From: Plazaster borealis
Lineage: Eukaryota > Echinodermata > Asteroidea > Forcipulatida > Labidiasteridae
DNA length: 64,000 nt
Assembly (NCBI GenBank): GCA_021014325.1
Contig: CM037472.1
Span: 33,070,234-33,134,233, forward strand
Direction of reading: 5' to 3'
Translations under genes and position numbers: made by a program
The notes under the pieces: model-generated
Seen by the model: only the letters and a program-made list of their open reading frames with translations
The model's database searches: none
Told to the model about the DNA's origin: nothing
In this document: positions 31,346 to 48,110 of the stretch, piece after piece
How positions within the stretch are numbered: position 1 is the stretch's first letter
How the letters are laid out: each line of letters opens with the position of its first letter

Positions 31346-31615
31346 AGTAGTAGGAACAATGGGGGTTCTGGACCACCTTGCTTTGGGGTATATACAAATA
31401 GAGCACATGGGGTTTGCTCCCAGCTTTTTTGATAGGGCTCGCCCCGCTCTCTTGGTGGGCTGCTGGTTCTAGACCACTTTTGGGTTGGGGTATATATACA
31501 AATAGAGCACATGGGGTTCTACTAAATTTTCGTATACGAAAATTAGGTTTTAATAGGGCTCGCCCCGCTCTCTTGGCGGGCTCGACCCACAGCCAGTGAC
31601 TTTCAACCTTAACGC
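31346..31615 (+). repeat. Polinton left terminal inverted repeat
   Basis: 270 bp matching the reverse complement of 46,448-46,716. Internally it is a two-unit tandem: TATACAAATAGAGCACATGG and GGGCTCGCCCCGCTCTCTTG each occur twice, about 100-120 bp apart. Only the second unit carries the palindrome AATTTTCGTATACGAAAATT (31,525-31,544). A short TIR-like match (CACGATGGAGTG) resumes at 31,660 after a 44-bp gap. Confidence 0.95.
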
Positions 31616-31662
31616 CTCATTTGTATATACAATTAGACATATACACTGCACCTGTATACACG

Positions 31663-31863
31663 ATGGAGTGTGATAAGTGCCACAAATTTTTTAAGAGGTA
31701 CTACAACCTGAAGAGACACCTGGAGAACCGTAAGACACCTTGCTTACAAGAACCGCGGCAATACATATGTATGGATTGTGGTGGGGAGCTGAGCTGTAGC
31801 TCCTCCTTGTGGAGGCACAAGAAGATTTGCCCGGCACACCGCAGGACAAAAATTGTGATATAA
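31663..31863 (+). CDS. Small two-finger zinc protein
   Basis: Sixty-six residues from the ATG at 31,663, just inside the left TIR. The first finger is CDKC-x12-H followed after five residues by C. The second is CMDC-x13-H-x3-C. Both are C2HC-like variants of the classical zinc finger, and the C-terminus is basic. Small zinc-finger genes of this sort are common near Polinton ends; a role in DNA binding or gene regulation is inferred. It is followed immediately by palindromic repeats (31,865-31,901) and a convergent gene. Confidence 0.65.
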   Translation: MECDKCHKFFKRYYNLKRHLENRKTPCLQEPRQYICMDCGGELSCSSSLWRHKKICPAHRRTKIVI

Positions 31864-31864
31864 C

Positions 31865-31901
31865 AAACTTTTGCAGGCAAAGTTTTCGTCTACGAAAGTT
31901 G
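31865..31901. repeat. Two overlapping palindromes between convergent genes
   Basis: AAACTTTTGCAGGCAAAGTT and TTTTCGTCTACGAAAGTT share an arm. They sit 2 bp after the stop of the zinc-finger gene and before the 3' end of the minus-strand gene, so they could act as a shared 3' end signal. Confidence 0.75.
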
Positions 31902-31944
31902 AACACGAGCTAAGAGCTGTGACAACACCAACGAAAACTGTTGT

Positions 31945-32229
31945 TTAGCTTTTTTCTTGAGATATGTTCCTATGTCTTATTTTATCTCGGCCACAGTCTC
32001 GGCATAGCTGTATTTCACTCTGAACCCCAATACCACAGGATTTACAGGGTATTGAAATATTTCTGCCTTTACGGATCTTTACTAAGTGGTACTTACAATA
32101 TTTACCGCAGCAGCTCCTATTACAAAGATCAACTTCACCAACTTTAACCCAAGCACAAACATTGTGTCCTTTCATTTCGCAGATTGAATATCTCAGGTAT
32201 ACATTTATGTCTAAATGGTTTTTTATCAT
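31945..32229 (-). CDS. Cys-rich putative zinc-binding protein
   Basis: Ninety-four residues, with Cys pairs CCGKYCKYH, PCKSCG and LCRDCG spaced like two zinc-ribbon or treble-clef knuckles in the C-terminal half. The frame is open with no lesions. It is convergent with the zinc-finger gene and divergent from POLB. I know of similar small Cys-rich genes in Polintons but cannot name a function. The start at 32,229 is the only upstream ATG before the cysteines; a later start is possible. Confidence 0.55.
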   Translation of the reverse strand: MIKNHLDINVYLRYSICEMKGHNVCAWVKVGEVDLCNRSCCGKYCKYHLVKIRKGRNISIPCKSCGIGVQSEIQLCRDCGRDKIRHRNISQEKS

Positions 32230-32415
32230 TAGGGAATCCCCAATTTATTGCGCAATGTGCATGGGAAATTCCTAAGTTTTGTAAAATGAACACTTCAATT
32301 AGAGATATGTGTGTTGTAGGTTATGCTATCACCAGCAAACCCCATGCCCTCTACTGTTGGGTTTTGTGTGTTAATGACTCTCTATTAGAGAAATACGTCG
32401 TAGCTTATACTATAA

Positions 32416-35400
32416 ATGACGAGTACTTCAAAAACGTTTAGAACGGTACAAGACTACCAAAATGAGATTCTAGAGCAGTTTGAATATAAAGAGACGGATG
32501 AGCTAGTCTTTAGGCAGACCCCACGGGTGATCGGGAAATATCTGCGGGGTTGGCAGATGGTTGTGCCCAAAGGGCATCTCCTTAGCGCAGACCCCAGAGC
32601 CTTTCTGGACGACGTGCGCTCTCAGATTTACCAAAAACTTGAGGAAGAGCTTAAAGCTTTTAACGGTATTAAGTTTCAGCTGGCTCTCAAGCTTCAACTT
32701 CGAAAAGACAACCCTGATGGGAGTGAGGAATACACTGATCCCGTGCTCCGCCACAAACAAGAGTCTGTTTTGCAGGCTAACGATATTAATGATGCACTAG
32801 ACAGGGCCTTTCCCCGCATCCAGGAGACGCTTGAAAAATTTACTCAAAGAGGCTCGGGGTGGACGGTTGACCACGTAGAGATGCTGTGGCTTGACATTGC
32901 TCGGTACCAGCCCTTGAGAGGCGGCTCATACATTCCACTACCCGCAGCGGTGAAAAGCAAGAAGGCGGTCATCAACGTGAAGAACAATGATGATCACTGC
33001 CTGAGATGGTCCTTACGGTCTGCTCTCTTCCCCGCCAGAGCCCACACGGATAGGCCTTCCCAATATCCCACTGATGATGGCCTAGACTTCACGGGGATCG
33101 AGGCTCCTACTCCCTACTCTCAGATCCTGAAGGTTGAAAAACAAAACAACCTAGCTATCAACATATTTGGCTGGGATAAGGGTGTTATCGTTCACGGGCT
33201 AAGCAACAAGCCCATGGACATGCCCAGGATTAACCTCTTGCTGATCGAGAAGGCAGGCAAGTTTCACTACACCTGGGTCAAAAACCTAAACCGTCTTCTC
33301 TACCAAGAAAACAAGCACCGGGAGCGTACGCACTTTTGTGAGAGATGTCTCCATGGGTACTCGAGAGAAGACCTCCTAGAAGCTCACAAGCCTGAATGTT
33401 GTGGGATCGGTCAGACGGCGGTGAGGGTAGAGATGCCAGAAGAGGGAAAAATAAGCTGACCTTTCAAAACCACCACAAGCAGTTTCCCGCCCCTTTCATC
33501 ATCTACGCCGACTTTGAGGCTCTAACTACAAAGGTAGAGGGGCCCGAGCTGGACCCCACGAAGAGCAACACTCGGAAGACGCAGCACCACGAGACTTGTG
33601 GCTATTGCTATGTAGTCGTTCGCTGCGATGGACGGACAAAAACACCTGTAGAATACCGTGGACACGACGCGGCGGAGCACTTCTTAAAAGCGATCCAGTA
33701 TGAGGAGCGAAAGATCAAGGAGGTGCTAGCCAACCCTAAAGCAATGAAGATGACCGCTAATGACCGGCGAGCCTTTAAGGCAGCCACCACCTGCCACGTG
33801 TGTGAGAAGCCACTTGAGGGAGATACTGTCCGCGACCACTGTCATATCACTGGAAAATTCAGAGGTGCTGCACACAACGCTTGCAACTTGAAGCTGCGCC
33901 TGAGCCCTAAAACCACAACCATACCTGTGGTCTTCCACAATTTGCGGGGCTACGATTCTCACCTCCTGATGCAGGCTATTTCCAAGGTAGAGGGTAAGAT
34001 TTCTTGCATCCCGAACAACACCGAGAAATACATTAGCTTCTCCCTCGGTCAGCTCCGATTTATCGACAGCGTCCAGTTCTTGCCGTCCTCTCTTGACGAG
34101 TTAGTAGCAGCCAACCTGCCCGAGGCTTTCCAAATAACGGGCCAGTACGAGCCATGTAAAGAAAGGCGCAATCTTTTGTTGCGCAAGGGCGTCTACCCGT
34201 ACGAGTACATGGACTCTTGGGAAAGGTTTGCAGAGCCAGGTCTCCTCCGAAGGAAGCCTTCTACAGCAAGCTGAAAGACGAGTACATTAGCGAGGCCGAC
34301 TACGTTCATGCACAAAAGGTGTGGGAGACCTTTAGATGCCACACTATGGGAGACTACCACGACCTCTACAACCGCACAGATGTGCTCCTTTTGGCAGATG
34401 TCTTCGAGACTTTCCGGAAGACCTGCATGCGGCAGTACGGCTTGGACCCCGCACATTACTACACCAGTCCTGGCCTCTCTTGGGACGCGTTGCTCAAAAA
34501 GACGGGTGTAGAACTCAAACTGCTCACAGACTATGACCAGCACCTTTTCATCGAGAAGGGGATGCGAGGTGGTATCTCCATGGTATCTAAGCGCTTTGCG
34601 AGAGCTAACAACCCTTTGGTTAAGGGCTTTAACCCTCCGAGCCGAACAGGTACATTTCTTACCTGGATGCTAACAACCTATATGGGTGGGCAATGAGCCA
34701 GTCGCTGCCTACAGGCGGCTTTGAGTGGGTGGAGGAGCTGTTGTCTACAAAAGTTTTAACGGAGCATCCGGCAGACAGCCCAGAGGGCTACATCTTGGAG
34801 GTAGACTTAGAGTACCCTGTAGAGCTCCACGACGCACACAACGCCTATCCGTTAGCGCCAGAGCGCATGGTCGTTCAGAGAGAGTGGATGTCCGAGTATC
34901 AGCACAACCTAATCTTTTGCAAGCAAAAGATTATTTCTACAGAAAAGTTTTCAGGCAAAAGATTAGTTTCAACAGAGGTTGAAAAGCTGGTACCCAATCT
35001 CCGTGATAAAGAACGATATGTGCTACACTATCGCAACCTACAGCTGTACCTCTCTCTCGGCATGCGCTTGAAGAAGATCCACCGGGCTCTTCGCTTTGAG
35101 CAGAGCCCTTGGATGGAACCCTACATCCGGATGAACACGGAGTACCGGAAGGAGGCAACCAGCGACTTCGAAAAGAACCTCTACAAACTCATGAACAATA
35201 GTGTATTTGGGAAAACAATGGAGAACCTACGCAAGCGGGTCGACGTTAAGCTGGTGCGCAGTGATGAAGAAGATAAGCTAAGGAGACTTATTGCCAGCCC
35301 GGCCTTTGCTCGGGCAAACATCTTTGATGACAACCTCGCGGCGATCCAGGTTCATAAGAGCCGCCTGGTACTCAACCGGCCCGCCTACGTGGGTATGAGC

Positions 35401-35967
35401 ATACTCGACCTTTCGAAGCACCTTATGTACGACTTCTACTATAATCAGATAAAGGCTCGGTATGGTGATCGGTGTCAGCTCCTTTACACAGACACAGACT
35501 CTCTCCTCCTTGATATCCAAACCGAGGATGTGTACAAAGACATAGCCGAAGACCAGAACCTCTACGACACATCTGACTACCCCAAAGAGCACTACCTCCA
35601 CAACACGGTAAACAAGAAGGTATTGGGAAAGATGAAGAACGAGTGCGCCGGGCGCCCCATCGCCGAGTATGTGGGGCTGCGGCCTAAGATGTACTCTATC
35701 TTCGAGGCTGGCGGGAATAACATCAAAAAAGCCAAAGGTGTGAAAAAGTCTGTTGTGAAGAAACAAATTCGACATGAGCAGTATAAAGAGGCTCTATCAC
35801 AAAAAGACCTTCCGCCACGGGATGGATGTGCTGCGTTCTGAGAGACATAGAATTTACGGTCAGCGTCTGAACAAGGTATCACTCTCCCCTTGGACACAAA
35901 GAGGTGGATAGCTGAAGACGGTGTCACCACACTAGCCTATGGGCACAAAGATATTATGCCTGCATAA
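32416..35967 (+). pseudogene. POLB: Protein-primed DNA polymerase B, frame broken
   Basis: Replicates the element by protein priming. Seen in order: an N-terminal region with RGGSYIPLP; exonuclease motif I IIYADFEAL (about 33,500); a Cys/His cluster CHVCEKP...DHCH (about 33,790-33,850); Exo II HNLRGYDSHL (about 33,940); Exo III YNRTDVLLLADVF (about 34,370); polymerase motif A LDANNLYGW (about 34,665); motif B KLMNNSVFGKTMEN (about 35,190); motif C YTDTDS (35,485). The reading frame changes near 33,450, 34,240, 34,635, 35,803 and 35,888, each in a short A or C run. Palindromic repeats lie in frame at 34,910-34,971, between motifs A and B. The C-terminal frame ends at 35,967. Catalytic residues are present, so decay is recent or the breaks are assembly errors. 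Confidence 0.9.
34910..34971. repeat. In-frame palindrome cluster inside POLB
   Basis: AATCTTTTGCAAGCAAAAGA (34,911-) is followed by a half unit CTACAGAAAAGTTTT and a second half CAGGCAAAAGATTAG. The stretch is translated as NLIFCKQKIISTEKF then SGKRLVST without a stop. It lies between motifs A and B, in the region where family members have a variable linker. Confidence 0.85.
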
Positions 35968-35969
35968 AA

Positions 35970-36093
35970 CTAATCTTTTGCCTGCAAAGATTATCTTTTG
36001 CTTGCAAACTTTTCTGTAGAAAAGTTTGATTAGTTTAGTTTATCAACGAGATTGTCGCCTAAACTTTCGTAGACGAAAGTTTAAGCAAAAGTT
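35970..36093. repeat. Palindrome array between POLB and INT 3' ends
   Basis: At least four units: TAATCTTTTGCCTGCAAAGA (35,971), TTTTGCTTGCAAA (about 35,997), a 22-bp palindrome centred on TTCTGTAGAA (36,006-36,027) and one centred on TCGTAGACGA (36,061-36,082). Transcripts from both convergent genes would run into the array. The last unit supplies the final INT codons and stop. Confidence 0.85.
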
Positions 36094-37086
36094 TAACAGG
36101 TGGCACCTGGGTGTTGGGAGGCACCACAAGTAGCTCTTCTCGTACAAACCCACGAGCTGGTACCCCACGATCTTTCATAAGATAATAAAGAACAGGCTCT
36201 CCGGGTTTAGTGACTGAACGCCCAAGCCGGTGCACCCGGAGGGACCATACTGGGTCAGTTGCGCGACGACGCCCACCTTCTAGCTCACCTGGCTGGTAGA
36301 GGTACCGAACGCCCACGCCCGAGGGGAGCTTTTGCTCGTTGAGACCAACAGGGCGGTCTGCAATGGTAGAGGGCTTTTGTTTTACCGATTTTGCCTTGAT
36401 GGCTTCTGAGGGCTTTTTTCCGTCAATCTGGTAACCTCTGTGTTCAGAGCTAAGACAACGGCGGGAAGTCGTGCTACCCACTCAGTTGACCTCTCATCAT
36501 CTGGGAGACGCAGCTCTACCGCATACTGATGCCCAAAGAGCTTTTCTGCTAGAGTTCGGTTGAATCTTTCCACGATGCCCTGCGCTCGATGCAAATCTTT
36601 TTCACCCCGTCGGACTTTGACACCATGTTTCTCCAGAGTTTGGGATACGGAGCCCATAAACTCACGCCCAGGGTCAACCTGCAGCACCTTCGGCCACTTT
36701 AAAGGTCCCCGCTTGTAAATGCGGGACAAAGCAGTAGCCACCTCGGTGGATTCCTTTGAAGTCAGTGGTTCAGCTTCTTTGTAGCGGCTGGCAACATCAA
36801 CCACAGTCAGGGCGTATTTGTAAATCTTTCGGCCCCTGGGCAGGCGATCGTGTGGAAGAAACAATAGGTCAGCTTGGTGGACTTCATTAGGCACTGAAAT
36901 ATCAAATTTTGGGCGAGGCACATGGCGAGGGGCTGGGAGATATATCTGCCATATAGCTTGTCTCTTGAGCCAATCTTTACTCACATCTTGAGTGACTTTT
37001 GCAGCCTCGGCTAGTTTTTGTATGGCCGCAAGTCCCTTCCAGTATCCTTGGGGGCTGTAGTACAATGCAGACAGTTTAGTATCCAT
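36059..37086 (-). pseudogene. INT: Retroviral-type integrase, one frame break
   Basis: Inserts the element into host DNA. From 37,086: an N-terminal helical region, then the catalytic core with D73 (HQADLLFLP), D138 (LQVDPGREF) and E173 (GIVERFNRTL), the last two separated by 34 residues. This is the D,D,E triad of retroviral and Polinton integrases. The frame changes near 36,420-36,430 at a G/A run. The C-terminal part (36,059-36,420) is basic, with SLRVHRLGRS and YYLMKDRGVPARGFVREE, an SH3- or chromodomain-like tail. The last residues KLSSTKV and the stop come from a palindrome. It is convergent with POLB. Confidence 0.9.
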
Positions 37087-37100
37087 ATAAGTTTACGCCT

Positions 37101-37320
37101 GCAAAAGTCTAACTAAACTTTTCTGAAGAAAAGTTTTTTTTACAATCAAAAGATTATCTGTAGAAAAAAAAAATCTTTTGCCTGCAAAGATTAGTTTGTG
37201 ATTGCAAAAAATAACTAAACTAAACCTAATCAAACTTTTCTGTGCAAGCAAAAGATAATCTTTTGCAGGCAAAAGATTAGTTTACTTAACAATCCAAACT
37301 TTCGTCTACGAAAGTTTATA
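37101..37320. repeat. Large palindrome array upstream of INT
   Basis: At least five units in 220 bp: centred on TTCTGAAGAA (37,115-37,136), AATCTTTTGCCTGCAAAGAT (37,172), TAATCTTTTGCAGGCAAAAG (37,256-37,278), a 22-bp unit centred on TCGTCTACGA (37,296-37,317), and half units between. It separates INT from the next minus-strand gene, whose stop codon lies inside the last unit. Strong cruciform or hairpin potential. Confidence 0.85.
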
Positions 37321-37751
37321 GGCTGCGAAGGAAGTAACTCCAAGCCCCATGATAACGAAAGCAATTTCGCGATCACGTTGCTCTGGGGACGGCAAGTAGA
37401 AATCTGAGAGTTTGGGTTTTGGTTCTTCTAGCGTGGGGCCATTGAATCACTGCCAAACTTTTCTGTAGAAAAGTTTATAAGATTGTACTGGCGAATAGCT
37501 TCATCAACATTGCGGAAAGTGTGCACGGCATGTCCTTGGCGGCGAAGCTCTTCATTAATCCAGTCTAGGCGTTTGGCCCTCTTGCGTGACCATTCAGACT
37601 GCGCAGCTTGAAGTTGTTCTACAGCCTTGTCATGTCGTTTTCGCTCTTCATCGGCACCTGGATCACGCATCATCGAGAACAGAAAATTTGACCCAGAGAA
37701 CGCAAGTGCGTTCACGACCGCTCCGCCAACAAGCATTACAATAGAAGCCAT
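37306..37751 (-). pseudogene. Conserved Polinton small protein, one frame break
   Basis: Starts MASIVMLVGGAVVNALAF with a hydrophobic N-terminal segment, then a charged, probably coiled-coil stretch (EERKRHDKAVEQLQ...SRKRAKRLDWINEELRRQGH). This N-terminal TM plus coiled-coil pattern recurs in a small gene of many Polintons; its function is not known to me. A palindrome at 37,455-37,476 is translated in frame as NFSTEKF. Just after it the frame changes (about 37,427, G run), and the other frame continues with KLSDFYLPSPEQRDREIAF and a second hydrophobic segment to a stop at 37,306 that lies inside another palindrome. Confidence 0.65.
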
Positions 37752-37852
37752 CAAACTTAAACTTTTGTAGACAAAAGTTATTGTAGACAAAAGATTAGTT
37801 TAACTTATATTTGTATAATCTTTTGTATTCAAAAGAGAAAACTTATACATCT

Positions 37853-38092
37853 TTACTTTAATATGTCTGCAGGGAGTATCCCCTGCTTGACAAGCATGTC
37901 TTTAGTGGCCATAGCTAGGCCAACATCTAGTATGACCATGCCAACATCATACGGCGCAAAGTCTAACTTTGGCGTAACACCTTTTATGATTTTTTTACCA
38001 AGAGTAGCGTATCCCACGGCAAGTCCACTTACTACGGCGGAGTGGTACACCAAATTAGCAAGCTGTTTACCATCAGTACTGGGGGTAGTCAT
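37853..38092 (-). CDS. Conserved small membrane protein
   Basis: Seventy-nine residues, intact. Two hydrophobic stretches (YHSAVVSGLAVGYATLG and DVGMVILDVGLAMATKD) suggest two membrane helices, with PKLDFAPYDVG between. It belongs to the block of small minus-strand genes next to the ATPase and is a recurrent small gene in this class of elements. A virion membrane or assembly role is possible but unproven. Palindromes lie on its 5' side at 37,759-37,795 of the neighbouring spacer. Confidence 0.65.
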   Translation of the reverse strand: MTTPSTDGKQLANLVYHSAVVSGLAVGYATLGKKIIKGVTPKLDFAPYDVGMVILDVGLAMATKDMLVKQGILPADILK

Positions 38093-38116
38093 TTTTGTTA
38101 TGCAAGAAGGAGATTA

Positions 38117-38614
38117 TTATTGCATATAATGAGGATTAGTTTGTTTGTCTAATATGTTTGTCTTTGATTTTTGAGATACATTTGGTAATTGTTTTGCAGG
38201 CGTATACGAAAACTTAGCATATACCACAGCTCCAACAGCTATAACAGCCCCTGCAAGGAGCAAACAATCTTTTGCCTGCAAAAGATTATCTTTTGCAGGC
38301 AAAAGATTAGTTTCTGATTGCGATGAGATTTCACTTTTATGTTTGCGGTCTTTTGTAGATGAAGGATTAAGATTATCTTCAGACTTGAGACTCTGTTTGG
38401 CCTTTCGCAGCTGCTCTTTCAGCGCTTCTTGTTTTGCTTTTCTAGCTGCTGCACCTTTGCGGCCAGCCTCAACTTTTTGTGGATCTTTATTAGTCACTCT
38501 CTTGACTTTTAACTGCGTCGATGTCGTCTCTAGGTCTTGCGCTGCTGTCATCTCCAGAGCTTGTGCTGCTTCTGTCGATGTCGTTTCTGATGGCTTTGCC
38601 ATCTCTTCTGTCAT
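38117..38614 (-). CDS. Basic core-like protein with TM segment
   Basis: 165 residues, intact. The N-terminal third is Ser/Thr/Ala-rich. The middle is strongly basic (RVTNKDPQKVEAGRKG, ARKAKQEALKEQLRKAK), like a DNA-condensing core protein of adenovirus type. One hydrophobic helix follows (CLLLAGAVIAVGAVVYA). Two palindromes (38,266-38,308) are translated in frame as NLLPAKDNLLQAKD just before that helix. The 5' end overlaps the 3' end of the upstream gene in another frame. The core-protein role is inferred from composition. Confidence 0.6.
   Translation of the reverse strand: MTEEMAKPSETTSTEAAQALEMTAAQDLETTSTQLKVKRVTNKDPQKVEAGRKGAAARKAKQEALKEQLRKAKQSLKSEDNLNPSSTKDRKHKSEISSQSETNLLPAKDNLLQAKDCLLLAGAVIAVGAVVYAKFSYTPAKQLPNVSQKSKTNILDKQTNPHYMQ
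38262..38312. repeat. Double palindrome, in frame in the core-like gene
   Basis: AATCTTTTGCCTGCAAAAGA (38,266-) and its variant with centre CAGG (ending 38,308) are directly adjacent. They add the residues NLLPAKD and NLLQAKD. Confidence 0.85.
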
Positions 38615-38615
38615 C

Positions 38616-38660
38616 TAAACTTTCGTGTACGAAAGTTTTACTTATACTCGTATAAGTTTT
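38616..38660. repeat. Two different palindromes side by side
   Basis: A unit centred on TCGTGTACGA (38,617-38,638) and ACTTATACTCGTATAAGT (38,640-38,657) abut. They are translated as KTYTSISKTFVHESL at the 3' end of the upstream gene and lie directly before the start of the core-like gene. Confidence 0.85.
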
Positions 38661-39054
38661 GTCTTTAAATTGACAGTGCTTAGCAGTTGTCATCGCTGCT
38701 GTAAGCGGGGCTAAGTACATACCATAGCGATAATACAGCTCGCAGCAGGCTGTCGTCAGCGCATGTCCGACAAAGGGGTCCTCCTCGAGGTCTATGACGA
38801 GCTGAGGCTTATTTTCGGGTGGAATTGGTAGAAATGTGCTAGCCGCTAGTGCATACATCTGCAGCGCAGACGCCCCGAGTTTTTGTCATTGAGGCCCCTA
38901 GTCGTGCCTCATAGCGGCTATAGTGCTTAGAAATCTCGTCATCACTCATCACATCAAGTTGTGCAAGGGTTAGTCGGGTTCCTATGTATTTTTGGGCTGT
39001 GCCGCCAGCCACAATTGCCGCCAGCCGGGTCCGTTTTTGTTCTTGCAAACGATC

Positions 39055-39135
39055 CAAACTTTTGTAATCTTTTGCTGGCAAATCTTTTGTAGACGAGGTG
39101 CAGCTCAAACTTTTGTCTACAAAAGTTTTGTTTAG
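39055..39135. repeat. Palindromes inside the 38,490-39,210 gene
   Basis: AATCTTTTGCTGGCAAATCT (about 39,066) and AACTTTTGTCTACAAAAGTT (39,108-39,127). Both are in frame and add KDLPAKD and KTFVDKSL. Confidence 0.8.
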
Positions 39136-39205
39136 CGTCGAGACGGTGGTATCGGTGCTTTCATCGGGAACCTCTTGCAACAATTGGTTGATCAAATCAT
39201 CACAA

Positions 39206-39383
39206 TCCATAATCTTCTGTGAGCAAAAGATTACTTTTGAGATCAAACTTATACTCTGTATAAGTTTATGCGCATGAGTCTAACATACTTGACAAACATC
39301 ACAAGAACTACTGCCAGATGTATAGTTTGTATGGCTAGCTGTGTTTGCTCCCACATAGAACTTTAGTTTAGCAAGCTATTAAG
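39206..39383. other. Spacer between ATPase and next gene, with two palindromes
   Basis: AATCTTCTGTGAGCAAAAGA (39,211-) and AACTTATACTCTGTATAAGT (39,246-) lie upstream of the ATG at 39,210. The rest (to 39,383) has no gene. Confidence 0.7.
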
Positions 39384-40111
39384 CTATGTTAACAACTGAT
39401 AAGCAACCGGCTGAGCAGTCTTTAGTATAAGCTTAGCGTGTTTAGCTTTAGATAGCTGCTGTCTAAGCGCATCTCGCTCCTCTCTCGTCGGGACAACGTC
39501 GTTTTCTCGCAGGCAATCTTCAAAAGAGTCCCTGTCCTTGCAGTGGAAGAGCCCTATCCACTTAGTCTGCTCGCGGAGATCTTTAAGAACCGAGTTATAC
39601 TTTTGCGTCAAAACCCACACAGATTGAGAGGCGTGGCGCCCCGAGAACGCAAGCTCAGACAGCATGTCTTTCTTTTGGTCAGAGCTTTACTAGCTGAGCA
39701 GTCGTCGATGATGTACAATGTCGGCTCGCCAGCAAAAATCGAGTAAAAAGCTCGCAACCACTTTTGAAGCTGATCGCCAGGGTCGACGATATAGACCTCT
39801 GGGTCTGTCCACACCCAGGATCGCTCGTGGTACGTTTTGTTCCAACGAATTGTGGGGCAGAGTATAACGATGTGCGAAAATTCGCCGCAGTAGTGATCTT
39901 CGAGAAGGTTTAAGATAAAGACTGTTTTCCCACAGCCAGTCTGGCCACAGATGATGGCCGAGTGGGGTAAAAACTTATCCTCGTATAAGTTTTTACTTTT
40001 GTCTAAACTTTCGTGTACGAAAGTTTTACTTTGAACTTTCGTTGACGAAAACAATCTTTTGCCTGCAAAAGATAAGTTTGGTTTAGTAGAGCGCACTGAT
40101 ATATCGACCAT
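39384..40111 (-). pseudogene. ATP: FtsK/HerA-like packaging ATPase, one frame break
   Basis: Pumps the genome into capsids in related viruses. Start at 40,111 (MVDISVRSTK), 29 nt inside the 3' end of the MCP gene. Walker A is ICGQTGCGKTVF (about 39,945), Walker B is TLYIIDDCSA (about 39,705), and a downstream WVLTQKYNSVLKDLREQ sensor-like block follows. The frame changes near 39,673 in an A run. Between the short N-terminal segment and FLPHS just before Walker A lie about 30 residues made entirely from four palindromic repeats (39,970-40,078). Mechanistic residues are present. The insertion sits at the N-terminal edge of the ATPase fold, where it may be tolerated. Confidence 0.85.
39970..40078. 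repeat. Four-palindrome cluster inside the ATPase gene
   Basis: AACTTATCCTCGTATAAGTT (39,972-), a unit centred on TCGTGTACGA (40,005-40,026), AACTTTCGTTGACGAAAA (about 40,034) and AATCTTTTGCCTGCAAAAGA (40,053-). All three sequence subtypes occur together and the whole cluster is open in the ATPase frame. Confidence 0.9.
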
Positions 40112-41388
40112 TTTCGATGTTGAGCTGAGCATCCATGATAACATACAAATACATGTTCAATGTGCCCGCCGTTTCTGCCTTTTTGGTGATCTGGACTGTG
40201 ACCCCCTCACTTGCATTTTCTATGCGCCTGCCGCTGCCGTGCAGTGAGTCATCATCGTTGCTTCTCAAGTCCAGCCATAGGCCGTACTTTGTTGTCAAAT
40301 ACTCTCCTACCGTTACATCAGCTAATGCTAAGTCTTTGGTGACCATTGCAGACGTGGGGTGGCGCTTGGTTGAAGGGCTGCTAGCGAAGTACTTTCGAAC
40401 TTCATCCCACTGTTGGTACCCGCGCATACCCTGGGCATACAACTGGTTTGGCTTCCTCGACTATGACCTCAACTTTTTCGATCTTGGGGTTATAGAACGA
40501 TTCTGTATTTCGGTTAAACGCGGTCGCCGCTCCAGCATCCTCGAAGAGCATGAGTATTCCCTTAAAGCTTCGGGCTGGAATATTAAGATTGACGTTCCAC
40601 AGCGTATCACTCTTGTTGAGGGTGACCTTTCGGTGGCGCAAAATGCGGTCATACAAGATGGCAACTCGCGCAGTATACTGGTTGCGAATCATTCGAGCTA
40701 AGTTTGGCTCGCTCATAATTTCAAACTCGAGAGAGATGTTGTCGATGACGTAGCTAGCATCTGTATCACCTGTTGCCATTATAACGCGGCTGTAGTCATT
40801 AAAGGTAAGCTCGTACTCCAATCGGTCACCAAGGCCTGACTGGAAGAACGGCATGTGGCTCTCCAACAGTTCAAAGTCTAGTGGAATGCTAAATCTGTTG
40901 CTGTATGCATCTGCAACAGCCTTGTCTTGCGCCGTAGAACTATCACCATCTCCGGCGCCCACCCTCAGTTTAAGCATGTTAGCGTCTTCCGCCACATCAA
41001 TACCCTGGTAGACCTGAGACCGGCGCTCTCCCAACGTTTTCCAAAGGTCGGTGTAGCAGCCGATAACATCGCTGTCATCTATAGACATGACCTCATTACC
41101 ACTGATCCTGATTGTCTTTTTCTTCACAACGGCTTGGCCAAGGTTTTGAACCACTGTTCGATTGTCGTCGGTCGAGGTGAGGGCGATGGTAAATGCGAGG
41201 CGGGCTGTTCCAGGAACAATCACATCCTGGGCGCCAAGGTTGGGAAAGCGGACCAAGAGCTGCTGATTTTGGTCGATAGTGGAGGGGTTGTTGGTTACAA
41301 CCACGCTCTGCCGTATGCCTTTGATCCCGAGTGGATCCCGCAGGCTTCTAAGAGGATTCAGTTTGCGTCCGTACTTTGACGATGCCAT
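40083..41388 (-). pseudogene. MCP: Major capsid protein (double jelly-roll), one frame break
   Basis: Forms the hexameric capsomers. About 435 residues from the ATG at 41,388 (MASSKYGRKLNPLRS), matching Polinton and adintovirus major capsid proteins in length and composition: a basic N-terminus, beta-rich jelly-roll segments, a PLDFELLESHMPFF landmark between the two rolls and DILRH-like YDRILRHRKVT later. The frame changes near 40,455 (at GCC/AAA runs), after which QGMRGYQQWDEVRKYF and a final beta-rich segment reach the stop at 40,083. No palindromes interrupt it, unlike its neighbours. The divergent gene at 41,467 shares its 5' spacer. Confidence 0.8.
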
Positions 41389-41466
41389 TCAAACCAAACT
41401 TTATCTTTTGTCTATTAAACCTTGGCGAGTGTTCAATATAAGTAAAGCCAACCTTTGTATTCAATA
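41389..41466. promoter_or_regulatory. Divergent promoter region between MCP and coiled-coil gene
   Basis: The only 78 bp available to drive both genes. It contains ACCAAACTTTATCTTTTGTC, which looks like eroded palindrome arms, and an AT-rich TCAATATAAG. The promoter role is inferred from gene orientation. Confidence 0.4.
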
Positions 41467-42759
41467 TGGCAGAAGGTGGCTTTGAAATGAATGATTTTGA
41501 TGCACCCGAAAAACAACCAGAAGTCGAAGAAGACACCAGTTTTATTTCCCTGAACCTCCTATCGGGGCACCCTTAGATGGGCTATCGGCTAATGAATACG
41601 GCGACCGCATCAACCAAGCGCGCGACGACATCCGTACAGACGAGTTGCGAGAACAGCGAGACCGTTTAGTAAATGCTTTCTATGAGGAGATAGGTCTAAA
41701 CAATGGCCCTCGACCTACGATCATAGAATACAAACGGTTTCAGGTCGGCGAAGATGGTAAAACACTTTACTGGGTAGAAGGTGATAAAAAGGTTCGGATG
41801 AGCGCTACTAAAGGCCCTAAAAGTTTTTAGGATTGGGTACTATTGCCCAAAGTTTTGGCTCTGGGGGCTCCAGAGCTATTCGAGATTTTCTCAACCTGCC
41901 TGGGTACGACAGTACACTGCGTCGTCATTCTCGACCTACCCTTCGCGAGTTAGAAAAGGTTGCTGATAAAGCACAAAATGCAACACAAGCAGATGGTGAT
42001 GTACTAGATCAGACAGTTAATGTTTTAGATGATTTAGTTATTAGTATGTCATCTAAGCCGCCTACTGAGGAAGAAAATCTTTTGCCTATGAGAGAGATTC
42101 TAGGGCTTGACAAAGCCCTGAAAACTTTGCGTGCCACAAAAGCGGTGCAAGAGAGCAAAGTAGTTTCTCTCCAGCAGCTAATCGAGGGCTATCGCGAAGA
42201 GCTTAAGCAACCCGGGACAACTGAGCGAGCGGACCAAATCGAACGTGAAATTACAAAAGCCGAAGATGATCTCGCAGCGGCTCGAGACAGCGTTGATGTC
42301 CTCAACCAACAACTTCGGTCACAGTTCCGCCAAATTCGTGAGACCATATCTAGCGTTCTAGATAAAAACAAATCTCTGGCCGATCGGCTACGGACCCTGT
42401 TCCGCGAGCAGGGTGTGACCATAGCCATCATTATCACTGCACTGGGCTTTGCCATCAGCACTCTGGTTCTTGCCTTGACTGGTGGGCCAGCTGGCGGGGT
42501 TACACCGCCAACACCTCCCACGCCCCCCGCAAGTAAAGATGGGGTAAAAGAGTGGGCGAAAAAACATTTGCAAGCTCTCGGGCGCCTTCTAGCCCAATTA
42601 GCTGGAAAGGCTGCAGCCGCACTACCGGGCATCGTCGGAGGCATTATATCGTGGCTCCTCAACCTCTTGAGTAAAACTGCTGGCTGGCTCGCGGGAAACC
42701 TATGGGCAATAATTGTTGCCATCGGCGGTGTACTGTTAACTTTAATCTTTTATAAATAA
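41467..42759 (+). pseudogene. Coiled-coil protein with C-terminal membrane region, two frame breaks
   Basis: Start MAEGGFEMNDFDAP at 41,467. It is acidic at the N-terminus, followed by QARDDIRTDELREQRDRLVNAFY, a WVEGDKKVRMSATKGP block, a long heptad-type coiled coil (about 41,930-42,370) and a hydrophobic C-terminal region with a Pro/Gly hinge and glycine-zipper helices (AAALPGIVGGIISWLL, LWAIIVAIGGVLL). Frame changes lie near 41,552 and 41,826, in C/T and T runs. I recognise it as a conserved large protein of Polintons and adintoviruses; a membrane-active or structural role fits but is unproven. It is followed at once by a palindrome array. Confidence 0.7.
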
Positions 42760-42817
42760 TAAACTTTTGTAGACAAAAGTTTTTTGTAGACAAAAGTTTT
42801 TTGTAGACAAAAGTTTT
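42760..42817. repeat. Tandem palindrome array between convergent genes
   Basis: Three overlapping units of the ACTTTTGTAGACAAAAGT type in 57 bp occupy the whole gap between the stop at 42,759 and the stop at 42,816. Each unit forms a hairpin on either strand, as a bidirectional 3' end signal would. Confidence 0.9.
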
Positions 42818-43517
42818 AGCGTAGAGCGAGCCAACCGAGACCAAGAGCAACGCCACCAACAACAAGTGCAGTTCGCCCATCATAGTGCGCTAAACTTTCG
42901 TCTACGAAAGTTTGTCTTTCATCTACGTCGATATCAGGCTGTGCCAAAACCGGTCCCATCAAACTAACTTCCGGAGTTTGAGCTAGGTGTGCTGGCCTTG
43001 CAGGAGGCCCCTCCATATCCTTTACAGGTAACAAATTCTCGACAACTGCATTTATACCGTTGTTAAAGCCCAAATTTTGCCCCTGCTCCGCGATCACAAT
43101 CTCGTTGTTGTAGTCCTGAATAGTTCCAATCTGCAACTCCATGTTGCTGGGAGCCATATACAAACCAATTCCGAATACATAGTCAACCTTAGAGCGGGCG
43201 TATCGAAGCATGTCTTGGTAGCGTGCCACCGCACTCGGGAGATCTACAGGGCTTGAGACTGCATCCTCAACATTCGCTAAGAACTGTTTCTGGGTGTCAA
43301 ATGCGGCACCGGTGCCAATAATACTCGAGCGAATCTGCGCCTGTGCGCCTAGGATAGCCCACACGTATGTTCGGATAGAGTCGTTGATTCTTTCAACCCC
43401 AGGTTGGGTAAAGCCCTCCGACTTGTCGAGAACAAATGTTGTCCATGCTTGGTCTCCTTCTGGCCCCTGACCGATGTAGTCGACGCTGAACGTGGCTGGT
43501 CTATCACCAAAGCTCAT
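42816..43517 (-). CDS. Conserved Polinton protein with C-terminal TM anchor
   Basis: 233 residues, intact. It begins MSFGDRPATFSVDYIGQG and continues beta-rich (GDQAWTTFVLDKSEGFTQPG), with a hydrophobic tail helix ALVVGGVALGLGWLALR. A palindrome (42,892-42,913) is translated in frame as QTFVDESLAH just before the TM helix. The start overlaps the stop of the upstream gene in an ATGA, so translation may be coupled. I recognise it as a recurrent Polinton gene but know no function. A virion surface or membrane protein is plausible. Confidence 0.65.
   Translation of the reverse strand: MSFGDRPATFSVDYIGQGPEGDQAWTTFVLDKSEGFTQPGVERINDSIRTYVWAILGAQAQIRSSIIGTGAAFDTQKQFLANVEDAVSSPVDLPSAVARYQDMLRYARSKVDYVFGIGLYMAPSNMELQIGTIQDYNNEIVIAEQGQNLGFNNGINAVVENLLPVKDMEGPPARPAHLAQTPEVSLMGPVLAQPDIDVDERQTFVDESLAHYDGRTALVVGGVALGLGWLALR
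42891..42913. repeat. Palindrome in frame in the 42,816-43,517 gene
   Basis: AACTTTCGTCTACGAAAGTT core; translated without a stop. Confidence 0.85.
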
Positions 43518-44161
43518 GCGGTCTTTTCTATAGTCGTTCGACGAAACACCGAAGCTGGGGTTAAGACCCCACTAGCAACCAAATCGTTGCTCACTTCTTT
43601 AATAGAGAGCACTGAACCTTTCCACCAATGATACGGCGTTCCAAGACCACTATTTTGGTCGATGCTCTGCCGCCAGTCGGTGTGCGGTGAGACACCAAAC
43701 TCCGCGCAAATTTGCTCATATACCCTCTGGTTGTATGGGGTATCAAAGGCATCCCAAGTGTCATCCTGTGGGAGTGGCACCTGCATCCCTTCAAGAATCC
43801 TTCGCACCTGGTAGTATACGTGAAAGCGGTAGACTGATCGCACCATCGGGACTTTAGAGCTAAGATGGTCTTCTGCAGAGACACCGCAACCTGTGGTAGC
43901 ACACCACACTGCAAAGTTAATCTTATTTTGCCAAAATTTCATCGGGTTTGAGCTCCACGTGTCCACTACATCATCACTTTGTACGTGTGGCAGCCTATAC
44001 CGCTCCGCCGACAATATATCCGGAAAGACGGTGTCAAAGCTCGCCGACACCTTATCAACCTGTATTGTAACATTTTGCAATACGAGTTGAGATTTTGCGG
44101 AGTATACCCCACCTGTTTGGTAAGATGCATCTGTGTTAAAGCTATAAGCTTGGTTAGACAT
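43514..44161 (-). CDS. Conserved Polinton virion-type protein
   Basis: 215 residues from ATG 44,161 (MSNQAYSFNTDASYQTGG); an upstream extension exists but runs through palindromes. Beta-rich with DKVSASFDTVFPDILSAERYRLPH, NFAVWCATTGCGVS and a WWKGSVLSI block. The frame has no lesions. It overlaps the next gene by 4 bp (ATGA). Function unknown; its place in the capsid half of the element suggests a structural component. A partial duplicate of its 5' end lies at 44,921-44,970. Confidence 0.65.
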   Translation of the reverse strand: MSNQAYSFNTDASYQTGGVYSAKSQLVLQNVTIQVDKVSASFDTVFPDILSAERYRLPHVQSDDVVDTWSSNPMKFWQNKINFAVWCATTGCGVSAEDHLSSKVPMVRSVYRFHVYYQVRRILEGMQVPLPQDDTWDAFDTPYNQRVYEQICAEFGVSPHTDWRQSIDQNSGLGTPYHWWKGSVLSIKEVSNDLVASGVLTPASVFRRTTIEKTA

Positions 44162-44234
44162 AACTGCACAAACTTTGCTTGCAAAGTTTAAGTTATACTC
44201 GTATAAGTTCAAAAGATTATTTGCAAAGTTCGCT
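44162..44234. repeat. Palindromic divergent spacer (unit 1)
   Basis: AACTTTGCTTGCAAAGTT (44,171-44,188), AGTTATACTCGTATAAGT (44,191-) and an AAAGATTATTTGCAAAG remnant fill the gap between the divergent starts at 44,161 and 44,235. Confidence 0.8.
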
Positions 44235-44921
44235 ATGTTTGTTACACAAACCAATATTCAAAAGAGAGAAGCGCCGCTCCTCCAACCCGCAATTAACAAT
44301 GTAAATGGTAAACTCTGTGTTGCCCTAAGAGAGTTGCATTTTTAAAAAACTAACACTCTTGATGTTGACTCTACTGTTGATCTTAAGTTTGACAGTAATA
44401 ATAATCTTAGTTATACCTCGATTAAAGTTGTTCGAGGAATGTACACCTTTGAAGATATACAACAGTTTTTCAAAGCAAATATACCCCAAATAGGACTCCA
44501 AATGAACAAAACAACGGGGTTTGTCAGTGTCAATGTCAGGAGTGTTTCTATGTTTTTAAATTTGATGATACAATGTGTTCACTATTGGGCATTCTCTCTA
44601 ATCTTTTGACGGTCATTGGTTCCAAGGAAGAGTAGATGGAATTAGACCCTCAAGGTTCCATACCCCTAACCTGGTTTCTATACACCTCAATCAACTTTAT
44701 GCGGCTTCTAATATTATTGATAGCGCCCCTCGTCGCTGCTAACCATAACCCCGTTCAAATCTGAAAGCAGTGTAAACGTTAACCTTGCTTACCCTATGTA
44801 CAAAAAACTTAAAGCAGGACATATATATAAACTAAACTTTCTCGTGTTAGATGAATATGGTGAAGATATGCGTGACAATCCTATCTCTATGACTGCAGTA
44901 CTTGAGATTAAGCCTGTCTAG
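44235..44921 (+). pseudogene. Diverged penton-like paralogue, several breaks
   Basis: Starts MFVTQTNIQKREAPLLQP, parallel to the intact-start paralogue at 45,000. Later segments in shifting frames include KVVRGMYTFEDIQQFF, SIHLNQLYAASNIIDSAP and AVLEIKPV at the end, in the same order as in the paralogue. Breaks occur near 44,340 (T/A run), 44,540-44,620 and further on. The gene plus its 5' spacer was tandemly duplicated to give 44,921-45,659. It may be a dead copy, or a second structural gene damaged by the same kind of base losses seen elsewhere. Confidence 0.6.
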
Positions 44922-44999
44922 TAGATGCGTCTGTGTTGAAGCTATAAGCTTTGTTTGGTATAACTGCATTAACAATCTTTCGTAGACAAAAGATTAGTT
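44921..44999. repeat. Duplicated spacer with a different palindrome (unit 2)
   Basis: GATGCGTCTGTGTTGAAGCT to TAACTGCA repeats 44,124-44,169 (the 5' coding end of the minus-strand gene). The following palindrome is instead AATCTTTCGTAGACAAAAGA (44,973-), directly before the ATG at 45,000. Confidence 0.8.
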
Positions 45000-45659
45000 A
45001 TGTTTGTGACACTAACCGATATTCAAAATGAAGAAGCGTCGCATCTCCAGACTGTAATCGATAATACAGATGGCAAGCTCTATGCTGCCCTCAGAGGTTT
45101 GCATTATGAGGTTAGCCATCGAAATATTGGGCATTCAGCTGGAATTTTGTGGCGTTCTAACTTGGATGATAAACCTCGAAAGATTATGATCCCTGCTGGA
45201 TTATATACCTTTGAATACCTACAAAATCTGTTCACAAAAGAGCTGCCCCAAGTATCGGTCGAGATAGATAAAGCAACAAATCTAGTCATGTTCAGCATTC
45301 CAACGGGCGGAGCCTTAAAAATACCCTCTGATATACGCCGCCTGTTGGGTATCAGCGATAAAGGTTGGATTGATGGGAAATACGAGGAGACAGACCCTCT
45401 AACTTCGATATTCACAAGTGGGTATACATACACCTCGATCAACTTTCTACAACCTCCAACATCGTTGATGGCGCTCCTTCAACACTACTAGCCATAACCC
45501 CAGCCGCACCCAAAGGTGTTATAAACATTAATCCTATTTGTCCTTGAAGTTGGGCACATACATCAATTGAACCTTCGCGCGTTAGATAAACATAACCTGT
45601 TGCTACAAAACCATAGCAAACCCATAACTGTTGTGCTTGAAATTCGAGAAAATGCCTAA
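45000..45659 (+). pseudogene. Penton-like minor capsid protein, two frame breaks
   Basis: About 215 residues from ATG 45,000 (MFVTLTDIQNEEASHLQ). The first half has RKIMIPAGLYTFEYLQNLFTK and DIRRLLGISDKGW. After a frame change in a G run near 45,421 the second half reads IHLDQLSTTSNIVDGAPSTL. After another near 45,540 it ends HIHQLNLRALDKHN...ITVVLEI at 45,659. A beta-rich small capsid-type protein with a terminal VLEI is characteristic of the penton or minor capsid gene of Polintons; this assignment is from family resemblance and is moderate. It overlaps the next gene by 8 bp. Confidence 0.6.
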
Positions 45660-46290
45660 GATACCAACAGCTCCTACCATCGAAACAACTGAGCGATTGT
45701 ATCCCGTTCTTCAGCCCGAGGACAACAACACAGGCTCTAATTATCGCCTGACTGAAATCCGCAACCTCGAACGCAAACTTGAAAAAGAGATAGAAGACAG
45801 AAGTAAGCTGTACAACAAGTACCGTAGATCTATCAATATCGTTGATGGTATTGACACAGTGTTGATTCTATCATGCCTTGGAATGGGAGCTACTGGTGTA
45901 GGATTGCTCTCCACAATTATAGCTGCGCCTATTGTCATTGCACTTGAAGCAGCTGCAGGTGTTTGTGGTCTTGCCGGTATTGCCGGCAAGTTCGTCTCTC
46001 GGCGGCTCCTTGTAAAAGCTAAAAACACGATGAGATTCGTGTTCTCGCTCTATCTAAGCTCAACAGCGTTTCAGATGTGATCTCACAAGCGCTACAAGAT
46101 GGGCACATCTCCCTGAAGAGTTCAAGCTCGTAATAAACGAAATAAATAAATATCGACAAATAAAAGCTGATATTCAGAAAAAAGCCGCAAAGTATACGCA
46201 GCTCAAACCAACGAAGTAGCAAAAACGAGCTGATGGCCGAAGCCCGAGCTTCAATAATGAAAGAGCTTGCGGCAACGACACTGAAATAAA
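45652..46290 (+). pseudogene. Conserved TM/coiled-coil Polinton protein, four frame breaks
   Basis: Starts MPKIPTAPTIETTERLYP. It continues with a coiled-coil segment (RNLERKLEKEIEDRSKLYNKYRR), then two glycine-rich membrane helices (SCLGMGATGVGLLSTIIAAP and ALEAAAGVCGLAGIAG), then a basic KFVSRRLLVKAK. Frame changes follow near 46,023, 46,110, 46,207 and 46,218, three in A runs and one in a C run. The last frame ends MKELAATTLK at 46,290. This is one of the most recurrent genes of animal Polintons; its function is not known to me. No palindromes lie inside it. Confidence 0.7.
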
Positions 46291-46447
46291 GTGCGGTTGC
46301 TTTGCCAGTTTTAAATTCAGCCGTGGTAGCAAACTTAACGAACCTCCACCCAGTTATTCACAAACGTAAACGTCTACAGTTGGGTTCACTCATTGTGTAT
46401 ACCGTGCTACACTCCATCGTGTTCAACTTTCGTAGACGAAAGTTGAA
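46291..46447. other. Right subterminal spacer with TIR-edge palindrome
   Basis: Contains ACTCCATCGTGT (46,411-46,422), matching the left subterminal CACGATGGAGT, and then CAACTTTCGTAGACGAAAGT (46,424-46,445) immediately next to the TIR. The left end has unrelated sequence in place of the palindrome. Confidence 0.75.
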
Positions 46448-46716
46448 GCGTTAAGGTTGAAAGTCGCTGGCTGTGGGTCGAGCCCGCCAAGAGAGCGGGG
46501 CGAGCCCTATTAAAACCTAATTTTCGTATACGAAAATTTAGTAGAACCCCATGTGCTCTATTTGTATATATACCCCAACCCAAAAGTGGTCTAGAACCAG
46601 CAGCCCACCAAGAGAGCGGGGCGAGCCCTATCAAAAAAGCTGGGAGCAAACCCCATGTGCTCTATTTGTATATACCCCAAGCAAGGTGGTCCAGAACCCC
46701 CATTGTTCCTACTACT
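46448..46716 (-). repeat. Polinton right terminal inverted repeat
   Basis: 269 bp, reverse complement of 31,346-31,615, including the duplicated internal units and the palindrome at 46,519-46,538. The outermost bases are ACTACT; the very next bases (CTGCTATTCCGGACTGGG) are collagen exon 6. Confidence 0.95.
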
Positions 46717-47147
46717 CTGCTATTCCGGACTGGGCTGCTACTTATAGCGACGCAGCAAACTCACAGTCCTACCTGTATGGAATGGAGTACGAAGTAGCGT
46801 CATTTGACCCATTCTCCCATGAAAATGCCGAGTTTATCAACCAGCGTGACGTGCCGTGTGCAGTGTGCCGTCTCACAGACCGTGGAACACATCTTCTGAT
46901 TCCGGCTAAGAGAGAATGCCCGCAGAACTGGACACAGGAATACCAAGGGTTCCTCATGTCTGGACTTTACACAAGTGAGCAGCGCGCTCAGGCTGTGTGT
47001 GTGGATGAAGCACCCGAGGTTATCCCTAGTAGTCAAACCAGTACCAGCGCAGCTCTGCTTTACATCATGGAAGTTCAGTGTGGCTCAATCCCATGTCCCC
47101 CATACGTTCAAACCCGTGAAATAACATGCACCGTCTGTAGTGTGTAA
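46717..47147 (+). pseudogene. Collagen exon 6 fragment fused to Polinton end
   Basis: Reads AIPDWAATYSDAANSQSYLY through CTVCSV and stop without a lesion. The first about 70 bp of exon 6 and all upstream exons are missing, because the Polinton TIR abuts codon sequence. Upstream exons are not found beyond the left end of the Polinton. The open frame continues back into the TIR, but this is chance. Confidence 0.85.
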
Positions 47148-48110
47148 CTACTTTTGGATCACCTCGTTGCAGTTACTTTCTATACTTCCTCTTTGTTATT
47201 GCTAGTATTACACGAATATTGCTCGATATGTAAATTACCAAAAGGCTCTACTTACAAAGCAGTTGATTTTGTTATAAAATCATTTCTCGTCTTGACCTTC
47301 ACAGTGCTGTTTTAACGCCGTGTTTCTCCTATGCATGCGGCTGCTGTAAAGCGTCTTTACTAAATATTGATCGTAATGAAGAGGATCATGATTTGTTGTT
47401 CAGCTCACTGGTTACGAAGTTCATCCCTGTAACAATCCGTCTTAAATGCCGACAGCAGTGCTTATGTTGATTGCGGCAATGGGGATAAGCACGTAAGCCA
47501 CTGACAAAAAATAAATTGTTTGTGACTTTGTTGATATTATCGCAAGCTTGCTTCGATGGTGCACGTTATTGGAAACGTTTTGTTCTTTGATTCCCCCTTT
47601 CACACACATTAGCCGTTGCAATAAACCAACGCAAAATGTTCGGTAATATTTGTACGCATTTTTTTTATATGAAACTAAAACCAACCTTTTAACAAAAGCG
47701 TAAAGCCTATCGTAGCCTATAGTGCTGTATAGTGAATGGCTTTCTTATTCTTTTCGTAATACCTCTTTTAAAAATGGAGTGTCCCAAAAACGCGATTGCA
47801 AAATGATTGCGCAATAGGGGGCCTACCTCTTCCTTCTCACCCCCGTGTGAATCTTATGTTTGCTTGTGCGCGTGCGTACTCCACACTAGGCATTCTTCGC
47901 TTCGTATAACTAGCACAGCAATTCGGTGCTTGCCCTGAAGCAAAGAATGGTGATTGCAAGTGCATTATTCGGCGGTAAGCAGAACCATGAAATTGGGCCC
48001 AGGTTGGAATTTGGATCAGGCAAAAGCGTCGGTTTACTTTACGCAAGGCGGGAAAGCTCACTTTCATTGCTGGTTAACATACAATAATGGAACCCACCTT
48101 AATTACCTCC

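Follow-up and report, generated by a model that had tools for sequence, protein, structure and literature searches.

The 64,000-nucleotide stretch of Plazaster borealis DNA analyzed here (assembly GCA_021014325.1, contig CM037472.1, positions 33,070,234 to 33,134,233; hereafter, the window) contains, at 31346–46716, a 15,371-bp copy of a Polinton, a virus-like transposon, recognized by its terminal inverted repeats (TIRs) and gene content. We confirmed that this copy hosts a Polinton-specific family of short palindromes, with a unit length of about 22 bp, as had been proposed in a preliminary description of the sequence. Comparison with other copies of the element in the same genome lends good support to the view that these pieces move within this Polinton family. 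We consider it rather probable that they represent an ultra-short invasive palindrome family of one Polinton lineage, spread by short templated copying during element replication, a mechanism that we infer from short overlaps at the unit ends and the absence of a constant duplication.

Palindromes of the element and its flanks

Requiring arms of at least 8 nt and a loop of at most 6, we detected 26 palindromes in the element, whereas 40 dinucleotide shuffles gave 1.6 on average and never more than 4. The same criterion identified 12 and 8 palindromes in the two flanks (0.38 and 0.46 per kb, compared with 1.69 per kb in the element); thus, the palindrome search that had been proposed as a check places the element far above both shuffles and flanks. 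The flanks also exceed their own shuffles (12 versus a mean of 4.5, maximum 11; 8 versus a mean of 2.5, maximum 8). Palindromes with arms of at least 9 nt and a 2-nt center number 18 in the element and zero in either flank.

Five families were defined: A (AAACTTTCGTnnACGAAAGTTT), B (AATCTTTTGCnnGCAAAAGATT), C (AAACTTTTCTnnAGAAAAGTTT), D (AAACTTTTGTnnACAAAAGTTT) and E (AAACTTATACnnGTATAAGTTT), with G (ATCTTTTGTCTACAAAAGAT), H (AAACTTTTGCnnGCAAAAGTTT) and I (AATCTTTCGTnnACGAAAGATT) as further families. Matches to the five families, in the element and in the 48.6 kb of flanking DNA, respectively, number 14 and 0 when exact, 32 and 0 with at most 3 mismatches, and 39 and 4 with at most 4, while the contrast fades at 5 mismatches (43 and 22). 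Since there are 32 units at up to 3 mismatches, the earlier count of over thirty copies is correct at that threshold. The statement that the flanking host DNA contains none is likewise accurate for family members at this threshold, although the flanks hold 20 palindromes of other sequences. Host DNA also has a recurring perfect palindrome of 30 bp, AATAAAAACTTCTTGCAAGAAGTTTTTATT (window 11348–11377, 48291–48320 and 58975–59004; locus L019, 867–896), which probably belongs to another repeat.

The outer arms are nearly constant across families (AAACTTT or AATCTTT) and AT-rich, as had been noted; the variable part, however, is not a 4-bp center, as the families differ in the inner 3–4 bp of each arm together with a 2-nt center. 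The center is self-complementary in only one of 21 units (centers transcribed by hand). All of the arrangements described previously were seen, namely single, back-to-back, overlapping (e.g., the D array at 42761–42816) and half units, as were the placements in the TIRs (31524 and 46518), in convergent gaps and inside reading frames, to which tandem gaps can be added. The sites are as follows; L numbers denote fetched genome loci, comprising first 13 sister copies and L006, and later 29 shorter pieces.

31524–31545: A-like unit in the left TIR (family match, 3 mismatches)
31865–31901: overlapping H/B-like and A-like units beside the TIR; L048 has a complete H unit at the corresponding position
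34735–34756: D-like unit (3 mismatches) in the polymerase frame; L010 lacks 13 bp of it
34911–34964: B, half C and half B in the DNA polymerase frame; plain B in L011, C within B in L007 and L010
35972–36027: B, half B and C units in a convergent gap, with C inserted in B
36061–36082: A unit just past the homology-defined end of the integrase gene (36086)
37115–37136: C unit upstream of the integrase gene, 29 bp from its start
37172–37192: B unit, one base short
37257–37278: B unit preceded by half C and half B; C whole in L013 and L024
37296–37317: A unit, center identical in 13 of 13 copies
37428–37751, minus strand: small reading frame with an in-frame C unit near its C terminus
37455–37476: the C unit of that frame, translated as NFSTEKF; found in 13 of 15 copies but not in L011 or L023
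37759–37859: D, D, E-like, B-like and half E units upstream of a start
38266–38308: two B units forming one 43-bp palindrome; C within B in L011
38385: polymorphic site, empty in the window; A, B or a remnant elsewhere
38495: polymorphic site, empty in the window; H unit elsewhere
38617–38659: A and E units directly upstream of open reading frame (ORF) 38117–38614; E in the place of A in L023
39066–39128: degenerate B and D units; other palindromes there in L011/L022, L015 and L023
39211–39267: degenerate B unit and E unit (3-nt center); C within B in L032/L036
39385: polymorphic site, empty in the window; G unit between TA and TA elsewhere
39971–40074: four units close to where the ATPase frame starts (E, A, half A, B); the A unit, at 40005, in 7 of 16 copies
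42761–42816: overlapping D-unit array placed precisely between two convergent stops; repeat number 1 to 4 among copies
42892–42913: A unit in the C-terminal linker of a 430-aa gene, read as QTFVDESL; center identical in 12 of 12 copies
44170–44210: AAACTTTGCTTGCAAAGTTT and an E-like unit, immediately upstream of where the 430-aa gene starts (44161)
44974–44995: unit with one altered arm; perfect AATCTTTCGTAGACGAAAGATT in the diverged L051
46424–46445: A-like unit at the inner margin of the right TIR
46518–46539: A-like unit in the right TIR

Turnover of units between copies

A 40-base piece of the ATPase gene matched 93 places (85 of them exactly) at up to 3 mismatches in the scanned genome (717 contigs, 560.6 Mb). 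Alignments of at least 1 kb were obtained for 37 copies: 25 are 96.2–99.5% identical to the window, six are 93.9–95.7% identical, and six (L011, L022, L023, L032, L033 and L036) are 78–88% identical; these last six can be used to polarize changes at unit sites. Comparison of near-identical copies shows gains, losses, nestings and exchanges of units; the piece that moves measures about 22 bp, and it can preserve the reading frame of a gene that contains it. When the window is set against 14 near copies, 22 of the 33 insertions or deletions (indels) of at least 6 bp lie at units, compared with 8% of random contexts (p = 6e-17, or p = 2e-4 if 35% are expected); some of the 33 represent one event placed twice, a few bases apart, and 18 of 27 lie at units after merging by hand.

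Seven sites were scored for presence or absence at homologous positions between copies (counts refer to the fetched copies that cover each site, excluding the window). Among 35 copies at 38385, nine carry A, three B (L033, L039 and L043) and two a remnant, while 20 are empty and one, L044, has a 29-bp deletion that is not the empty allele. A full H unit occupies 38495 in nine of 36 copies, in mixed form in L033, and a partial one is found in L023. At 39385, six of 36 copies have a G unit, with a second G nearby in L032. The ten copies covering 34911 comprise one with plain B, two with C in B, six with B plus C and one that is unclassified.

Because 39385 is empty in L011, L022, L023, L033 and L036, its G unit was gained, and the absence of the C unit at 37458 from L011 and L023 likewise marks a gain, with one or two bases replaced. 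At 38385, the B form in L033 suggests an old unit that has since been lost, left as a remnant or replaced by A. Whole units are also swapped: an E-like palindrome replaces two D units at 37770 in L007, L016 and L035, and E replaces A at 38617 in L023. No constant target duplication was found across the sites compared, which show TA, TTAGT, none, or replacement of bases.

Units inside units and inside genes

C units (AAACTTTTCTACAGAAAAGTTT) occur within B units at AATC^TTT at 34911 (L007 and L010), 35977 (L015), 36006 (seven of 14 copies and the window) and 37243, where C is whole in L013 and L024 and halved in the other 11 of 13 copies. The junction differs at 38266 in L011, and the orientation is opposite at 39215 in L032 and L036. 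None of these junctions shows a duplication, only TTT being held in common, and they may represent either separate insertions or one composite copied between sites.

Two genes carry the same unit type in one orientation and one frame, so that both contain the identical peptide NFSTEKF. In ORF 37428–37799, QYNLI-A-DSDSM (L011) or QYNLI-V-GSDSM (L023) corresponds to QYNLI-NFSTEKF-GSDSM with the C unit. In the polymerase, HNLQS-FAGKRLA (L011) corresponds to HKLQS-NFSTEKF-SGKRLV (L007 and L010), to which the window adds a further B unit. The polymerase frame is kept at this site (34911) in L007, L010, L011 and L012 and is broken by a one-base difference in L005 and L015. A related Polinton fragment, L046, has a shorter polymerase at the equivalent stretch, although its own frame breaks there, so that the support it lends is weak.

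Genome-wide distribution

The A pattern occurs at 378 places genome-wide, compared with none for a reversed control, while H occurs at 25 and I at five. We examined 80 of these places (50 of the 378 A, all 25 H and all five I) and determined that 79 lie in Polinton copies and one in L006; none lies in plain host DNA. By distance, 71 of the 80 (45 A, 22 H and 4 I) fall within ATPase-bearing copies, including C4:262031, which lies beyond an insertion and whose sequence reads as Polinton. Of the others, four are A units in the internally deleted copy L014, four are fetched places in Polinton sequence, and one is the unit in L006.

Positions 1080–9501 of L006, together with L020 1–2970, constitute an 11.4-kb element that has both Polinton ends at about 99% identity, and in which a tblastn search with six window proteins found no supported match; it is likely a passenger of the Polinton machinery. 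L006 contains one exact A unit, a 22-bp match in DNA otherwise dissimilar to the Polinton. It also contains other palindromes around a GATAC motif, which could represent either a separate family or a component of its tandem repeats; including the A unit, there are eight palindromes in 8.2 kb, compared with 0.7 in shuffles. The element has an 870-aa frame lacking a Pfam match, and many repeats.

Beyond this genome, one scan of bacterial genome contigs identified L046, which is clearly related, and L047, which matches at 30%. L046 spans 5.1 kb and has an integrase with 76% identity; it probably represents eukaryotic DNA within a metagenome-assembled genome, and it contains no palindromes with arms of at least 8 nt. 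Viral contigs yielded no match to the unit pattern, and no relatives in scans with the integrase or the 430-aa protein.

Mechanism and alternative explanations

Because the polymerase of Polintons is protein-primed, the units would be exposed as hairpins on displaced single strands during element replication, when we propose that the copying takes place. A growing strand might pause at such a hairpin, or at an AAA/TTT run, pair briefly with an arm of another unit, copy that unit and then return. An entire palindrome would be inserted in this way, with target duplication slight or absent and an end overlap of a few bases. Existing units would be favored targets, since their arms supply the pairing, and units might be lost through slippage between short direct repeats on both sides. 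They would thus persist through self-copying and through tolerance in gaps, linkers and in-frame positions, rather than by performing individual jobs. Whether the 22-bp palindrome, too short for any coding capacity of its own, is an independent selfish unit within a nuclear virus-like element, using the replication of its host, targeting its own kind, swapping types and traveling to unrelated elements that have the same ends, we consider evenly balanced.

The suggestion that the units are mobile or self-templating is strengthened, as regards mobility, by presence or absence at exact sites, by the two polarized gains (39385 and 37458), by units within units and by an exact unit in unrelated DNA; self-templating and the involvement of any enzyme were not borne out, and part of the polymorphism appears to reflect loss of old units (38495) and reassortment. 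Several observations weigh against spread by templated copying. No enzyme, intermediate or live movement was seen. Reading frames are short of indels, and therefore a fair expectation for indels at units lies above the 8% of random positions, for which the test against 35% allows. The left boundary of the L006 unit is not perfectly clean, as six of nine bases agree with those at 38617, the best left match among the 174 A-unit contexts compared (the right flank agrees in one of nine). Units fixed at orthologous positions had been expected to argue for conserved signals; 37257 and 37296 are occupied in 13 of 13 covering copies and 42892 in 12 of 12, and even the 3-nt center of the E unit at 39245 is kept in 33 of 36, while other sites vary between copies.

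Further points of this kind are in keeping with an explanation in which ancestral units have mostly been lost by slippage deletion and reshuffled by ordinary recombination between copies. At 38495, the diverged L033 carries a unit and L023 part of one, so that this unit looks old and lost, and TTAGT repeats stand at the deletion ends; the B state at 38385 is found in L033, L039 and L043; and the alleles at 38385, 38495 and 39385, sites separated by no more than about 1 kb, show all four combinations for each of the three site pairs (unclear states left out). Recombination or recurrence is therefore at work between Polinton copies, and common alleles need not be separate insertions. However, the informative diverged copies lack a unit at 39385 and at 37458, C stands within B at several sites, and the L006 unit lies in DNA that has no other similarity to the Polinton apart from the six bases mentioned, so that we regard loss and reshuffling as the predominant process as distinctly improbable.

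The main rival to templated copying, which we nevertheless consider unlikely, is that the units are selected signals, either hairpins through which transcripts are terminated or processed, as in giant viruses, or inverted sites bound by a dimeric protein and serving as an enhancer or replication signal. Palindromes of the baculovirus homologous regions are bound by a viral dimer and act as enhancer or origin. Selection would account for several features that also tell against mobility: only six of 32 units (10 of 32 if ORF 38839–39279 is included) lie in recognized frames, which comprise 62–65% of bases, so that unit density is 4 to 7 times higher outside frames than inside; and units often adjoin gene starts or stops, lying a few bases from gene ends (36061 and 42761) or just upstream of starts (38617, 37759 and 44170), as functional signals would. 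Furthermore, sites tend to persist while the unit type is exchanged and palindromy is kept, the predicted RNA hairpins have energies of -4.7 to -7.7 kcal/mol, and Mimivirus messages are described as ending at palindromes that lack sequence conservation (PMC4402537). Signals would not, however, be expected in frame within the polymerase, the small ORF and the 430-aa gene, nor to be present or absent in many gaps between copies of one family; a structural signal needs no tight common sequence set; and the related fragment L046 lacks units.

Two further processes fit the data less well. Template switching within a site can perfect chance imperfect repeats, a known process (PMC8794818), and some paired one-base changes, in both arms of the double unit at 38266, are of the kind it would produce. 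Such correction cannot put identical 22-mers at dozens of unrelated sites, which already largely excludes it, and single-arm mutations stay uncorrected (e.g., L015 at 38266). Hairpin template switching moreover predicts inverted centers, and none was found between copies among the readable centers at 15 sites, a result that does not favor simple in-place switching and that also counts against the proposed templated copying; we consider quasi-palindrome correction very remote. It is scarcely conceivable that the units are minimal miniature inverted-repeat transposable elements (MITEs), moved by a transposase through terminal AAACTTT repeats with a two-base target duplication. TA does stand on both sides of the 39385 insertion and AG around the B form at 38385, but the duplication is inconsistent (bases are replaced at 37458, C in B shares only TTT, 38495 has five bases and L006 none), and a Pfam search of 16 window frames or frame pieces found no transposase domain other than the Polinton integrase.

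Comparison with known palindromic elements

Ultra-short invasive elements have reportedly been found in Podospora. The constant target-site duplication of MITEs is not found with the Polinton units. The closest kinds are the palindromes of organelles and Rickettsia, from which the units differ in size, sequence or target duplication. Rickettsia palindromic elements (RPEs) are described as lying in gaps and in frame in protein genes, with one such enzyme remaining active (PMC2229807). The likeness to RPEs drawn in the preliminary description is apt as regards behavior, since the units show the same gap placement and in-frame insertion, here of one unit type giving NFSTEKF in two frames and absent in diverged copies; RPEs, however, are bacterial and 105–146 bp long, while the Polinton units are about 22 bp long, have several interchangeable cores and reside in a nuclear virus-like transposon.

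The GC clusters of yeast mitochondria (GC42) are reported to be mobile, optional at homologous positions, and to merge and shuffle, by a mechanism that their description leaves unsettled (PMC4478555). They share with the units very short palindromes and presence or absence at homologous sites, as at the seven sites scored here, but are GC-rich, 42 bp long, mitochondrial and associated with a putative AG target duplication, whereas the Polinton units are AT-rich, 22 bp long and show no consistent duplication, despite the AG that adjoins the B form at 38385. Fusarium mitochondria contain AT palindromes that are likewise short, AT-rich and optional between relatives (PMC7218506), although these are mitochondrial and have homopolymer arms, and core families or coding insertion do not figure in the portion of that report available to us. 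The perfect inverted repeats of nematomorph mitochondria (PMC6649704) resemble the units in lying within genes and in being gained and lost, there between species; they are much longer (mean 43 bp, up to 142), mitochondrial and, in the part of the paper available, not described as one common repeat family. The hairpin-forming palindromes at message ends of Mimiviridae (PMC4402537) recall the units that adjoin some Polinton gene ends, but are described as structural with no conservation of sequence, whereas the Polinton units form common sequence families and also lie in frames and upstream of starts.

Ultra-short mobile palindromes have thus already been described in organelles and Rickettsia, in reports that, as far as available, leave the mechanism open. 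A search of the open-access literature on Polintons together with palindromes, mobile palindromes, hairpins or microhomology, a scope outside which preprints and subscription journals fell, showed no such paper among the titles listed. If the palindrome does spread as an independent selfish unit, it would rank with the smallest DNA units known to spread themselves and, within the literature searched, would be the first in a Polinton. As the units enter genes of a virus-like element in frame, they would link hairpin-driven replication errors to changes in Polinton genes and proteins. With about 93 copies, most of those read being near-identical, and outgroups in the same genome, there is a dense record of gain, loss and swap, so that the mechanism should be testable by counting.

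The host element

The TIR arms of the Polinton (31383–31619 and 46444–46680) are 237 bp long and 99% complementary, and the left TIR (window 31346–31619) has internal direct and palindromic repeats of its own, in pieces of 73–87%. The element encodes an rve integrase, a Pox_A32-type ATPase, an Endonuclease_7 domain and a phage-type DNA polymerase; the 430-aa gene and a 328-aa gene received no name from Pfam or PHROGs. Two genes have bounds set by homologues.

36086–37086, minus strand: integrase gene, frame broken in the window copy
44161 to 42822, minus strand: gene of about 430 aa, frame broken in the window copy

Internal deletions or insertions are found in L014, L036, L009 and L016, with L014 lacking window 38755–42502. 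On either side of the Polinton lie inverted stretches of about 3 kb (window 25718–28799 and 46717–49975) that are 91–99% complementary in pieces, as if the element had been inserted in or beside a large fold-back arrangement.

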